DNA of 47,077 nt from a virus. Made by a program: the position numbers and the translations under genes. Below the pieces are notes generated by a model, which was not told where the DNA came from, did not search any database, and worked only from the letters and a program-made list of their open reading frames with translations. Positions 9,507-45,758 of this stretch are shown in pieces. The first letter of the stretch is position 1. Each line of letters opens with the position of its first letter. The DNA lies in the IMG/VR virus record IMGVR_UViG_3300020215_000067, positions 1-47,077 of that record; one strand, 5' to 3'.

Positions 9507-11375
9507 GTGACCGCCACCCTCGAAGCTCCACCAGTAGAAGCGCCTAAACCGCGCTTTCAACTGTCGTTTGGTGGGACGAGCATTCAGGTCACGGGCGATG
9601 ATTTGGAGCGGTCGCGCAAGTGGTGCAAGGAGAACGTAAAGGCTTGCCCGGTAATTCCGCCGTATCTCGCTGGCGATCCTGACGCGAAGCTGTTCTTTCC
9701 GCCTAAGCCGGAAAAGCTGTTGTTCTGGACGAGCACGGGCAAGGAGAAGGCTGCTGAGGAAGTTGTAAATAGCTGGAATAAAGCGGTAACGCTGATGGAG
9801 CAAGACCCGCTGCGTTACGGGCATCGGCCTTCATGCTGGTCAGACGCGGACAAGTGCATCAGTGAGTCTTTGCTTACCTGTATATTCGGTGGAGGCGGGA
9901 GTTCAAAAACCAGATTTGCAGCAGAGCTTGGTGTTCGGACCATGCTGAAGAAGCCGGGGGCTAAGGTGCTCTGGCTGCATGAGGCGCAGCAGCCATCCAT
10001 CGACATTCAGCAGGCTTACGTTTACGACATGTTGCCGCCTGAATGGAAGCGGCTGAAGTATCGCAAGTCGGACAGGATCACGAAGATTAACTGGACGAAA
10101 GCCGGTGGCTTCATGGCTGGGGCGCATCACAAGTTCGTCCTGCCCAATGGGAGCATGGGCCTGTTCGGGTTCTACAACCAGGACATTAAGGTTTGCGAAG
10201 GGTACGGCTGGGACTTGGTTCTGGCTGACGAAGATTTGCCGCTAGGCTGGCTCAAGACGCTGCTGTATCGCCTTCCTCGGCAGAATGGCAAAATGGTTTG
10301 GACCTTTACGCCGATTCGCGGCATTACCCCGGCGATCAAAGAGGTTGTGGACGGTGCTACGGTAATTGAAACGCGAAAAGCGGAATTACTAGACCAGCAC
10401 AGGGTCCATGTTCCGGGGTGCCCAAAGGGTCACATGCCATACCTCCAAAAAGGCATATTCTGCGACGGTGGTTCGCAAATAATTTACTTTTTCACGGAAA
10501 TGAACCCGTGGTCCGGGTACGAGCAACAGAAGAAGGTTGCTGCGCGTGCCACCACGGAAGAAAAGGAACGCCGGTTTTATGGGTGGTCGCGGCAACTGGT
10601 TGGCAAACGGTTCCCGAAGTTTGGTGGGTGGAACATCGTCAAGGAAATCCCCAAGGATGTGACGCGCTACGTGGTGATGGACCCCGGCCCTGGCAGGAAT
10701 GCGTTCATCATCTGGGTTGCGGTGGATCGTTACCGTCGCCACTGGATTTATCGGGAATGGCCCGATGTAGAGACTTATGGCGAATGGGCGGTAACGAGCG
10801 AGACAAAGAACAAATGGGATGGCGACATGGGGCCAGCACAGAAGCCACTGGGCAAAGGCGTGAAGGGTTACAAGGAAATCATGCTGAATGCCGAGGGGAA
10901 CACATGGACCGGAACCCACTGGCAGACCGGGCCGACTACGGAGACGATTTTCATTCGTTACGGCGATCCGCGAGCGATGGCAGACCCGTCCGGGGTTGAG
11001 GAAGGGCAGGAGGGCAGCAACATGTTTAGCCGATTCGTGGAGGAACAGAAGGATGAAAAGGGGAATGTGATCGGGCCATCCATGGATTTTCTGCCAGCAC
11101 CCGGCTACCACATCGAGCGCGGGGTGGAAATGATAAATGATTTACTGGACAAGTATAACCCGGATGAACCGCCAACGGCGATGCTGAACGAGCCGGGGTT
11201 GTTCGTGCATGAACGATGCAAGAATGTGATTTGGGCCATGAACAACTGGACGGGAATAGACGGCGAGAAAGGCGCGTCAAAAGACCCGGTGGACACGGTG
11301 CGTTACATGGCTACGGCGGATTTACAGTTTCACGATCCTAAAATGCAAGTGAGTTATGGTGGGGGAAGCTATTAG
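9507..11375 (+). CDS. Terminase large subunit (622 aa)
   Basis: This is the ATP-driven DNA packaging motor and headful/cohesive-end nuclease that docks on the portal. Motifs: a Walker-A-like GGGGSSKT (about residues 128-135), Walker B LVLADED (Asp 241, Glu 242), a coupling motif WTFTPIRG, and a RNase H-like nuclease domain with VVMDPGPG (Asp about 392), GDPRAMADPSG and DPVDTVRYMA near the end. The GTG start follows the previous stop without a gap. Length is typical for a two-domain TerL. It heads the morphogenesis block, followed by the portal. Confidence 0.92.
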   Translation: MTATLEAPPVEAPKPRFQLSFGGTSIQVTGDDLERSRKWCKENVKACPVIPPYLAGDPDAKLFFPPKPEKLLFWTSTGKEKAAEEVVNSWNKAVTLMEQDPLRYGHRPSCWSDADKCISESLLTCIFGGGGSSKTRFAAELGVRTMLKKPGAKVLWLHEAQQPSIDIQQAYVYDMLPPEWKRLKYRKSDRITKINWTKAGGFMAGAHHKFVLPNGSMGLFGFYNQDIKVCEGYGWDLVLADEDLPLGWLKTLLYRLPRQNGKMVWTFTPIRGITPAIKEVVDGATVIETRKAELLDQHRVHVPGCPKGHMPYLQKGIFCDGGSQIIYFFTEMNPWSGYEQQKKVAARATTEEKERRFYGWSRQLVGKRFPKFGGWNIVKEIPKDVTRYVVMDPGPGRNAFIIWVAVDRYRRHWIYREWPDVETYGEWAVTSETKNKWDGDMGPAQKPLGKGVKGYKEIMLNAEGNTWTGTHWQTGPTTETIFIRYGDPRAMADPSGVEEGQEGSNMFSRFVEEQKDEKGNVIGPSMDFLPAPGYHIERGVEMINDLLDKYNPDEPPTAMLNEPGLFVHERCKNVIWAMNNWTGIDGEKGASKDPVDTVRYMATADLQFHDPKMQVSYGGGSY

Positions 11376-43205: not shown

Positions 43206-43891
43206 CGCCCTACTACCAGGACGACAGTTGCACCATCTATCACGGGGATTGCCGGGAGATTCTGCCTACGATTGAGCCGGTGGACCTTGTGCTGACTGAT
43301 CCACCGTACGGGGTAGGGATTGATTACGGCGAATATAAGGATGACCGCGCCACCTATTGGGATTGGTTCTTGCCATGCCTGAGCACGATCACAGCACACA
43401 CTAAGGCCGTCGTGTTTACGCATCGCGTCTCAGCTCTGCACCACATCAAGGGATGGGACTGGATTTGTGTTTGGAACAAACCTGGTGCGTTTGGCTCAAG
43501 GCTCGGAAATTCCTGCGTCCTTCCGCATTGGGAGCCAATCTTTTGCTTCGGGCTGCACACGATGGGGGTTGATTCGGTTTACACCAACGATGTATTCACG
43601 TTCAATCCGCAGCCCGCCATGGCCGGGATACGCGGCATTGGCAGGGAAAAATGGGACGGCAACACATTCACAGACCATCCATGCCCTAAGCCGGTCCAAC
43701 TTTACCACCGCCTCATAGAGACGTTCGGGCAGAAGGCCGAAACGATTCTCGACCCATTCATGGGCAGCGGCACGACGCTCCGGGCGGCCAAGGATTTAGG
43801 GCGCAAAGCGATAGGAATTGAACTGGAAGAACGCTATTGCGAGATAGCCGCCAAACGACTCGCGCAAGAAGTTTTACCGCTAACCGCCTGA
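43202..43891 (+). CDS. DNA methyltransferase, beta class N4/N6 (229 aa)
   Basis: Motif IV DPPYGVGIDY (about residue 31) comes before motif I DPFMGSGTT (about residue 186), with 'AIGIELEERYCEIAAKRL' as the AdoMet-binding end: the beta-class order seen in many phage and type II enzymes. It methylates adenine N6 or cytosine N4 in DNA. GTG 43202 overlaps the previous stop. The target site cannot be read from the sequence. No partner restriction enzyme is adjacent. Confidence 0.88.
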   Translation: MTPYYQDDSCTIYHGDCREILPTIEPVDLVLTDPPYGVGIDYGEYKDDRATYWDWFLPCLSTITAHTKAVVFTHRVSALHHIKGWDWICVWNKPGAFGSRLGNSCVLPHWEPIFCFGLHTMGVDSVYTNDVFTFNPQPAMAGIRGIGREKWDGNTFTDHPCPKPVQLYHRLIETFGQKAETILDPFMGSGTTLRAAKDLGRKAIGIELEERYCEIAAKRLAQEVLPLTA

Positions 43892-44044
43892 CTTATGCCA
43901 CTTCCAAAGCTTATTGAGTTATTCAACGTTATGAACAACTGTGGAAAACCATCACAAAACCCCTGTGTTTATTGGCGTTTACGCAGGGTTAGGGGTGTGA
44001 ATAAGTGGGGGAGGGATGACCTAATAAGATTATTCGACGTAAAT
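43892..44044. other. AT-richer gap with DnaA-box-like words
   Basis: TGTGGAAAA (43940-43948) and TGTGAATAA (43996-44004) each match the DnaA box TGTGGATAA at 8 of 9. CCCTGTG and CGCAGGG nearby can pair (7 bp). A 61-codon frame covers the gap (43895-44080) but shows no protein features. It could be an origin or a leader. Confidence 0.35.
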
Positions 44045-44072
44045 TTGACAGGACTATGGAAAGTTGTAGGAT
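44045..44072 (+). promoter_or_regulatory. Promoter ahead of the structured HNH locus
   Basis: TTGACA (44045-44050, perfect), a 16-base spacer and TAGGAT (44067-44072, 4 of 6). Transcription would begin near 44079, just before the first helix of the pseudoknot. Confidence 0.6.
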
Positions 44073-44096
44073 GCGAGTGAGTTCTTACTCTGGCAG

Positions 44097-44209
44097 TAGC
44101 AAGCCGGTAAAATGAGTGCGATAAGCTTTAGTTCAGACTCGGTGGACCGTAAAACGGTCGCCCGAACCGCTTCCCGCACTCAGGGTATTGCTAACGCCGA
44201 GTCTGAGCT
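44097..44209 (+). ncRNA. Nested pseudoknot upstream of and within the HNH frame
   Basis: Helices: TAGCAA (44097-44102) with TTGCTA (44188-44193); GAGTGCG (44114-44120) with CGCACTC (44175-44181); AGTTCAGACTCGG (44130-44142) with CCGAGTCTGAGCT (44197-44209), 13 bp with one G-U; hairpin GACCGT-AAA-ACGGTC (44145-44159). The 13-bp helix crosses the first two, a true pseudoknot. It does not fit group I, HDV-like or twister layouts that I know. Confidence 0.6.
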
Positions 44210-44702
44210 TCTTTCTTGGCGTCCAGTCGTGGGTCACGAGCGCATGTACGAGGTTTCAGATACTGGCCTCGTGCGCAGGATCGGCGGTCAGCCGCTCCTG
44301 GCGCAAGCAACATACGACGGCTATCTCGCTGTGGGCCTTTATGACGAAAGTCGAAAGCTAGCCAACAAGAGACGGTACAGGGTTCACCGGATTGTTTTAG
44401 AGGCCTTTGTTGGCCCTGCACCCGCAGGAATGGTTGCCGGGCACATCAACAACATTAGGCACGACAATCGACTTGAGAACCTTAGGTGGATGACGCAGAA
44501 AGAAAATATCTCCTATCGCACTGACTACAGAATGCGGGGGAGCGGTCATCCACACGCCAAGCTAACTGAGGCGCTTGTTGCTTTAATTCGGGAGCGGTGC
44601 GCTGCCGGAGAGCAAAAAGCAAGTCTCGCAAGGGAATTCGGTGTGTCAAGGCTCGCTATCCGGTTTGCTGTTGAAAGGCGAACATGGAAACACGTGTCGT
44701 AA
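44112..44702 (+). CDS. NUMOD4-HNH homing-type endonuclease (196 aa)
   Basis: 'SWRPVVGHERMYEVSDTGLV' is the NUMOD4 DNA-binding motif; 'YRVHRIVLEAFVGPAPAGMV', 'AGHINNIRHDNRLENLRWMT' and 'QKENI' form the HNH nuclease; the C-terminus ('LIRERCAAGEQKASLAREFG') is a helix-turn-helix. Such enzymes cut one or both strands of DNA at a site and promote their own spread. The first 30 residues lie on the pseudoknot and are atypical; GTG 44142 is an alternative start. Confidence 0.85.
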   Translation: MSAISFSSDSVDRKTVARTASRTQGIANAESELLSWRPVVGHERMYEVSDTGLVRRIGGQPLLAQATYDGYLAVGLYDESRKLANKRRYRVHRIVLEAFVGPAPAGMVAGHINNIRHDNRLENLRWMTQKENISYRTDYRMRGSGHPHAKLTEALVALIRERCAAGEQKASLAREFGVSRLAIRFAVERRTWKHVS

Positions 44703-44703
44703 A

Positions 44704-45026
44704 GGCACGCCCGATCTGGTCCGGTTGGTAACATTCCAACCCCGCATAGGCGGATGTATAAAACGGCCAGTACAAACGCGCCGGGATGGATAATACAGGC
44801 CCGGTAAGCGATTGGTTGAGTGCTGCCCTTGGTAGCGATCAACATGCCTCAGAAACAGGGCCTAAAGCCCCGTCGACAACTGGGGTGTGTCGCGGTGACC
44901 CGAGGGCGGCATTCAGCCAATCGCAAAGAATAGCTGCCCCAGTGCCTCTAATTGGCCAGCGGGTAAGCGATCTACGCTCTGCGGGTGGGTTAAGCCCTGT
45001 CAGGCCCCTGAATGGATAGGCGTGCC
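44704..45026 (+). ncRNA. Candidate 323-nt structured RNA downstream of HNH gene
   Basis: It starts one base after the HNH stop codon. Closing stem GGCACGCC (44704-44711) with GGCGTGCC (45019-45026). Inside: CTGGTC (44716-44721) with GGCCAG (44765-44770), enclosing hairpins GGTTGG-loop-CCAACC (44723-44741) and CCGC-ATAG-GCGG (44742-44753); GCCGGG (44780-44785) with CCCGGT (44800-44805); a 22-bp unbroken helix, 44808-44829 with 44903-44924, containing four G-U pairs; and GGGC-CTAAA-GCCC in its loop. No tmRNA, RNase P, SRP or 6S hallmark was found. Confidence 0.65.
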
Positions 45027-45165
45027 AAGAGAGAGCGTCAAAATGCGAAACGACCGACCGACCGGCGATACCGGAAGGAAGCCAGTGAGCAAGGATGCCC
45101 TGCTTAAGGGTATCTCTGCTCACTCACTCCCTCCCAACGATGTTCGCCGGAAGAAGAAAAAGAAA

Positions 45166-45405
45166 ATGCGGAACAAACAAAAACAGCAACTGAAGCGGGA
45201 AAACTGGTACTGGTGCTTCCACTGCGGCACCGTCGCCTACCAATTTGATTGTCGGCATGTGTCACTCATGGAGTGTTCCGGCATGTCCTGCTCAACCAAG
45301 CAGTGCGACCGATGCAGAAAGCTTTCCAAGCTGGTGGAGCGGGCTAAACGGTCTGGTTTCCACCCACCGATTGAGGAATTAAAGAGATTGGCTTACGGAC
45401 TATGA
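45166..45405 (+). CDS. Cys-rich, zinc-binding-like protein (79 aa)
   Basis: 'WYWCFHCGTVAYQFDCRHVS', 'CSGMSCSTKQCDRCRK' give several CxxC-type pairs. The ATG at 45166 follows an A/G-rich run; earlier in-frame starts (45043 ATG, 45022 GTG) would add a low-complexity, Lys-rich extension over the end of the RNA element. The function is unknown. Confidence 0.6.
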   Translation: MRNKQKQQLKRENWYWCFHCGTVAYQFDCRHVSLMECSGMSCSTKQCDRCRKLSKLVERAKRSGFHPPIEELKRLAYGL

Positions 45406-45758
45406 AATGTCGTTATTGCGATCAATCCATTGATGCGGACCCAGTAAAAACGGTGGCGTATTGGGGGGCAACCCCGGATTGGTGCCACCGGCAATGTAAG
45501 GAATCCGGCGTTAAGCGTGAGGCTTACGAATGCCAGTTGATCGATGCCGACTGTAACGATTGCAGGCATTACAAGCGTGGCCGTTTAGCACCGGAGCGGG
45601 TTTCCGTGATTAAGACTCGGGACGGGAGATTTGAGGAAGTGAGATTCCAGCCGAACCTTTTCATAGGCGGGCACTGCCTGAAGCTTGATAAGCCCACGGA
45701 CGCATGCCCAAACAAATGGACCGGGCATGAATGCTTTGAGCATAGGAGGGCGCAGTGA
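45402..45758 (+). CDS. Cys-rich zinc protein (118 aa)
   Basis: CRYCDQ at the start, WCHRQC, 'CQLIDADCNDCRHYKRG' and three more Cys/His groups near the end form at least two zinc sites. Start and stop overlap neighbours (ATGA, GTGA). A known group of small phage proteins has this 'C..C..H' pattern, function unknown. Confidence 0.65.
   Translation: MKCRYCDQSIDADPVKTVAYWGATPDWCHRQCKESGVKREAYECQLIDADCNDCRHYKRGRLAPERVSVIKTRDGRFEEVRFQPNLFIGGHCLKLDKPTDACPNKWTGHECFEHRRAQ

Follow-up and report, generated by a model that had tools for sequence, protein, structure and literature searches.

The element at 44079-45034 is most likely a strongly folded phage RNA of no known family with an HNH gene inserted in it. 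It lies in a window of 47,077 nt, the whole stretch of DNA that was analysed, which comprises positions 1 to 47,077 of the virus record IMGVR_UViG_3300020215_000067 (IMG/VR). In its specific form, a naked I-HmuI-like HNH insertion (44218-44703) inside a new large structured RNA of about 480 nt (44079-44217 joined to 44704-45034), this explanation appears about evenly balanced between right and wrong.

An earlier, sequence-only reading had proposed a structured RNA at 44704-45026 and called for a comparison with shuffled controls. The segment folds strongly on the plus strand: its minimum free energy was -152.9 kcal/mol, compared with -121.6 +/- 6.3 kcal/mol for 100 dinucleotide shuffles (z -4.95), of which none (0/100) reached an equal value. 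A second independent folding run gave z -6.4 for the plus strand and -3.1 for the minus strand. Controls of the same length scored -0.6 (methyltransferase gene) and -1.9 (downstream gene), the HNH coding stretch scored -3.0, and windows spread across the phage had a mean z of -0.14, the lowest being -3.7. As had been claimed, the segment has no convincing coding frame. Codon usage in all six frames is negative (-0.16 to -0.47 bits per codon), compared with a mean of +0.32 in the phage's own genes (35-codon windows). Very probably, 44704-45026 acts as a structured RNA. Its fold is made up of the following elements.

44704-44711 with 45019-45026, plus strand: closing stem, inner 8 bp, perfect (GGCACGCC/GGCGUGCC)
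44723-44741, plus strand: hairpin GGUUGG-UAACAUU-CCAACC, mean pair probability 0.96
44780-44805, plus strand: hairpin GCCGGG...CCCGGU, mean pair probability 0.99
44808-44924, plus strand: long hairpin arm of a 25-bp helix, an 11-bp helix and an apical stem

The perfect 8-bp closing stem was recovered as first described. The unbroken helix reported as 22 bp is real and has the four G-U pairs ascribed to it, but it is actually 25 bp long (44808-44832/44900-44924; 21 Watson-Crick and 4 G-U pairs, mismatch-free). The 11-bp helix (44842-44852/44880-44890) contains 3 G-U pairs. Less certain are the proposed three-way junction and the small hairpins in the middle part, with pair probabilities of about 0.4-0.6. 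On the plus strand, 7 of the 36 pairs in the arm helices (44808-44924) are G-U and none is A-C, a count biased by the fact that the helices were searched with G-U allowed. Since a DNA palindrome decayed by transitions would give A-C equally often, the asymmetry favours a plus-strand RNA, in agreement with the earlier argument that the wobbles point to RNA rather than to a DNA palindrome.

It is very improbable that the fold exists on paper alone and that the region is a DNA-level feature such as a replication origin, a recombination site or transposon-like inverted repeats. Inverted repeats of 11 nt (44210-44220/45024-45034) do bracket the HNH gene and the 3' part; however, every imperfect pair in the long helices is a G-U on one strand, with no A-C, the minus strand folds much less well, and there are many nested helices, not one palindrome.

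Several further features of this part were observed. The 10-mer GGTAAGCGAT is present twice (44803-44812 and 44962-44971, 159 nt apart), with a near copy, GGTAGCGATCAAC, at 44831; the copies are possibly a repeated structural motif. Seven pairs, one of them G-U, could form between GGCCAGU (44765-44771) and AUUGGCC (44952-44958), a possible loop-loop contact inside the RNA, and the GGCC in these segments would also permit dimer kissing.

The RNA had been placed directly after the HNH gene. The RNA stands, but the placement is probably wrong: the HNH segment appears to lie inside a larger RNA (~44079-45034), and the earlier boundaries are therefore too narrow. The evidence comes from the helix that closes the 3' part and from the coding segment that splits it.

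44210-44217, plus strand: first half of the 5' strand of the central 16-bp helix, UCUUUCUU, pairing with 45027-45034 (AAGAGAGA)
44218-44703, plus strand: proposed insert, HNH coding sequence that lacks a start codon of its own; TAA at 44700-44702
44704-44711, plus strand: second half of the 5' strand of the 16-bp helix, GGCACGCC, pairing with 45019-45026
45019-45034, plus strand: 16-bp helix, 3' strand, GGCGUGCCAAGAGAGA; the structured RNA is proposed to end here

The UCUUUCUU/AAGAGAGA pairing directly prolongs the closing stem GGCACGCC/GGCGUGCC, and with the HNH segment 44218-44703 left out both halves join as a single helix of 16 bp, one pair of which is G-U. The coding segment fits exactly between the helix halves. 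The 11-mer GCCAAGAGAGA (45024-45034) has a single Watson-Crick/G-U complement in the 47,077-base window, located at 44210, a position that borders on the end of the 5' domain (44209) as well as on the first conserved HNH codon (W36, 44217). On the other side, the TAA stop is followed by one A, after which the helix resumes at 44704. Both insert edges carry GGC (44218-44220 and 44704-44706), possibly as a 3-bp duplication, possibly by chance. The joined RNA lacking the ORF (481 nt) folds with z -9.0, compared with -4.1 and -6.4 for its parts alone in the same run, and the mean pair probability of its 16-bp helix is 0.98. The HNH-less junction predicted by the insertion model is TCTTTCTTGGCACGCC.

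When the ORF is included, the predicted ensemble retains the 25-bp arm and the inner 8 bp, assigns a probability of 0.10 to the outer 8 bp and favours a 13-bp alternative 5' stem. Forcing the full 16-bp helix under these conditions costs about 10 kcal/mol. The junction is thus probably looser with the insertion, except where the ORF has been excised or is covered by ribosomes.

Upstream of the split helix, a promoter-like site and a second folded domain were identified.

44045-44072, plus strand: sigma70-like promoter candidate, TTGACA (44045-44050), 16-nt spacer, TAGGAT (44067-44072)
44079-44209, plus strand: 5' RNA domain, a long interrupted hairpin (44080-44105 with 44184-44209)
44113-44120 with 44175-44182, plus strand: inner stem of the 5' domain
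44145-44159, plus strand: hairpin of the 5' domain

The site TTGACA-16-TAGGAT is the only promoter-like one in 43800-45500 and has 10/12 matches, with 1.2 such sites expected by chance, so its assignment as a promoter is suggestive only; transcription would start at about 44079. The 5' domain begins 7 nt past the -10 element, and 44079-44217 folds with z -4.1. No terminator was found. The similar segments AGUUCUUACUCUGGC (44080-44094) and AGUUCAGACUCGG (44130-44142) can each pair with 44196-44209, and the 13-bp stem formed by the second (44130-44142/44197-44209) would make a pseudoknot with the inner stem. Because the two folds of the 5' domain lie within 2.6 kcal/mol of each other in the ORF-less RNA, the alternative stem could serve as a switch. 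The preceding region (43895-44080) is an AT-richer gap past the methyltransferase, with a strong hairpin (CCCTGTGT...ACGCAGGG) at about 43960-43990 and a 61-aa ORF without relatives. Two different DNA methyltransferases, of the Dam and N6/N4 types, are encoded near the right end of the phage (40788-41288 and 43202-43891).

The nuclease gene overlaps the 5' domain, and the gene that follows it sets the downstream limit of the RNA.

44112-44702, plus strand: HNH endonuclease ORF, 196 aa; residues 1-35 overlap the 5' RNA domain
45043-45405, plus strand: next gene, of no known family, preceded by AAGAGAGAG and outside the RNA

An inverted repeat (AGTGAGCA...TGCTCACT, 45084-45124) was noticed within the start of this downstream gene. 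The HNH protein matches HNH_3 (6e-15, model positions 1-44 of 46), its only Pfam match, and phrog_59 (7e-38), its PHROG matches being mostly HNH endonucleases. Among solved structures, it is closest to I-HmuI of phage SPO1 (1u3e, E 4.5e-11). Homology to other HNH proteins begins at about W36 (codon 44217-44219), and alignment with relatives revealed conserved H57, H76, N84 and N88 (numbered from W36), in keeping with the conserved H/N/H of the HNH_3 catalytic domain. Judged by these matches, the nuclease is an I-HmuI-like HNH homing endonuclease, with site-specific cutting predicted.

The nearest in-frame starts before W36 are GUG 44142 and AUG 44112, both within the 5' RNA domain. At 30 loci encoding HNH relatives, a possible start codon was found 2-26 aa, mostly 2-14 aa, before the W. 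The relatives in other phages are mostly free-standing genes between genes, and their flanks are usually without unusual folding: the joined flanks had z < -3 at 2 of the 30 loci (L180, -3.1; L213, -5.0), and at L213 the HNH gene sits between ordinary coding genes. No Rfam families were found around 20 HNH-relative loci.

The free-standing arrangement of these close relatives is also what would be expected if two separate things lay side by side here, a free-standing HNH gene with a structured leader or a coding N-terminus, and then an independent RNA at 44704-45026, the 8-nt continuation of the stem being due to chance. We consider this unlikely but a serious possibility. HNH residues 1-35 are in frame, with codon usage as good as that of the remaining residues, which may mean that the 5' domain is also coding, and the outer 8 bp are disfavoured when the ORF is present. 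Such an arrangement is harder to reconcile with a unique 11-nt complement that sits exactly at both edges of the HNH segment, with an HNH gene that has no start near its W, and with the much lower z of the joined RNA than of either part.

Under the insertion model, the RNA would be transcribed rightwards from its own promoter-like site, with a start at about 44079, and without the ORF it is predicted to fold as a 5' rod that abuts a 3' domain, the latter closed by the 16-bp helix. The insertion point would be the middle of the 5' strand of this central helix. The nuclease would cut or nick the uninterrupted RNA gene of a co-infecting relative at ...TCTTTCTT/GGCACGCC..., and repair would copy the insert in. 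It has been proposed here that the insertion is tolerated because the halves of the split strand can still pair with one continuous complement; the coding segment, looped out or excised, would leave the fold of the RNA intact. The nuclease, its own start lost, would be read at a low level from AUG 44112 or GUG 44142 in the 5' domain, whose structure may hold its translation low, as in the case of T4 I-TevI. Messages of homing endonucleases often sequester their start sites with inhibitory structures (PMC3014915). As a working guess, the role of the RNA may be architectural or regulatory, comparable in kind to that of GOLLD or ROOL.

The frequency of inhibitory structures in homing endonuclease mRNAs (PMC3014915) and the position of the HNH AUG 44112 at a stem edge are consistent with a cis-acting mRNA structure, in which untranslated regions on both sides (5' and 3') of the HNH coding sequence control the translation and decay of its message and no independent RNA function exists. 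We give this explanation little credence: a highly structured 3' part of 330 nt far exceeds the need, and structured flanks are mostly absent in the 30 HNH relatives.

The sequence-only reading had found a fit to none of the large bacterial RNA classes, and a search of the whole window against Rfam bore this out, with no match at the gathering score. At E<=10, 44704-45026 matched only microRNA or sRNA models, at chance level, and the matches of the element as a whole were no better than chance. GOLLD, ROOL and OLE had no covariance-model match in Rfam, which leaves room for a very divergent member. No HEARO match was found in Rfam, and the protein, whose sole Pfam match is HNH_3, lends no support to HEARO, IsrB or IscB. 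No tRNA or tmRNA was found in the window. An HDV-like ribozyme was rejected: the order A, B, hairpin, A', B' resembles that of such a ribozyme, but stem A is too long, Rfam was silent, and no P1.1 or P4 pattern could be recognized by eye.

A self-splicing or other catalytic mobile intron, divergent or of a new class, would remove itself from the transcript and have the HNH protein as its homing enzyme. Such elements typically have an ORF within a large folded RNA, the intron that encodes I-HmuI, the closest solved relative of the protein, belongs to group I, and the 5' domain has a possible pseudoknot. This explanation is nevertheless improbable. The group I model (RF00028; core P3-P8, P7 guanosine site) was unmatched at E<=10, although the positive control, the SPO1 I-HmuI intron, was found at E 5e-4 with similar settings (itself below the gathering score). 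The sole group II match (RF02012, 11.1 bits, E 2.9) is at chance level, and in the A-B-A'-B' order, examined by hand, the first two strands lie too close together to accommodate P4-P6. Furthermore, the element lies in an intergenic gap rather than in a recognizable gene, the upstream 61-aa ORF is without relatives, and no exon pair around the element was recognizable by sequence. There is likewise a slim chance that the whole of 44079-45034 is a new mobile RNA class with its own HNH homing enzyme, catalytic or self-assembling, and distinct from group I, group II and omega-RNA.

Searches of viral contigs, phages, plasmids and sampled Verrucomicrobiota genomes with blastn, nhmmer and covariance models turned up no homolog of the RNA, either carrying the insert or lacking it. 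The structure thus rests on one sequence, and neither the helix pairs nor the empty site has support from evolution. The HNH protein and the downstream protein, used as queries, led to no RNA homolog, nor did a comparison of 80 methyltransferase loci (blastn, tblastn) or blastn searches of 388 genomes from across the phylum Verrucomicrobiota and of 365 genomes from a single class. The best match of covariance model R2 in the 388 Verrucomicrobiota genomes (22 bits) looked coding and was judged to be chance. Scans of viral contigs for GGTAAGCGAT occurring twice and for the uninterrupted site TTTCTTGGCACGCCCG returned matches in unrelated, coding-looking DNA only. A perfect 23-mer (44771-44793) in genome G261 has a different, AT-richer context and was also attributed to chance.

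The phage itself is isolated. Its presumed large terminase (9507-11375, 622 aa), named from its position and the look of conserved motifs, has no Pfam or PHROG match. One relative was found in 50,697 phage records (28% identity) and 200, mostly distant, in viral contigs, of which 80 were kept, most on short contigs. This isolation suggests an undescribed phage group. Among 84,980 species genomes there were two relatives, both in Verrucomicrobiota; on this basis, the phage probably infects members of that phylum. RNA model R1 and the HNH protein, run against a subset of the contigs that carry terminase relatives (viral and the two Verrucomicrobiota), led to no homolog of the RNA.

Homing endonucleases have been described in introns, in inteins, in gaps between genes and, more recently, as naked insertions within protein genes. 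If the insertion model is true, the helix of a structured noncoding RNA would become a new kind of host site for a naked HNH insertion, and an unusual home for such a gene, and a route would be suggested by which an insertion can do no harm even when nothing is spliced. A further implication would be a new large RNA in a little-studied group of phages that probably infect Verrucomicrobiota. The interest would be much greater if the RNA were catalytic or cage-forming.

Among known systems, the I-HmuI intron in the DNA polymerase gene of Bacillus phage SPO1, a group I intron, resembles the element in having an HNH ORF embedded in a folded phage RNA; the element differs in having no detectable group I core, no recognizable interrupted gene and a much larger 3' RNA part. 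In the intervening sequences of bacterial 23S rRNA, an insert in a helix of a structural RNA is tolerated since the helix holds the parts together. These sequences are small and mostly noncoding, whereas the insert described here carries a coding segment, and its excision is hypothetical. The likeness to HEARO or omega-RNA with IsrB or IscB, an RNA with an HNH-containing ORF, is at the level of names, as the protein here is a short I-HmuI-like HNH protein and not a RuvC-containing IsrB/IscB. With GOLLD, ROOL and OLE the element shares the character of a large (about 0.5 kb) multi-helix noncoding RNA, and GOLLD and ROOL are also phage-encoded (PMC12286853). Homo-oligomeric assembly is a hallmark of these families. 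In contrast to them, the RNA described here matches none of their Rfam models and has no tRNA in the window and an HNH gene inside. The ShiLan element is an HNH gene inserted with almost no flanking DNA, its stop lying within the last four bases (PMC11855218). Its host is a methylase protein gene, in which it is read out of frame, whereas the host here would be a noncoding RNA gene (PMC11855218).
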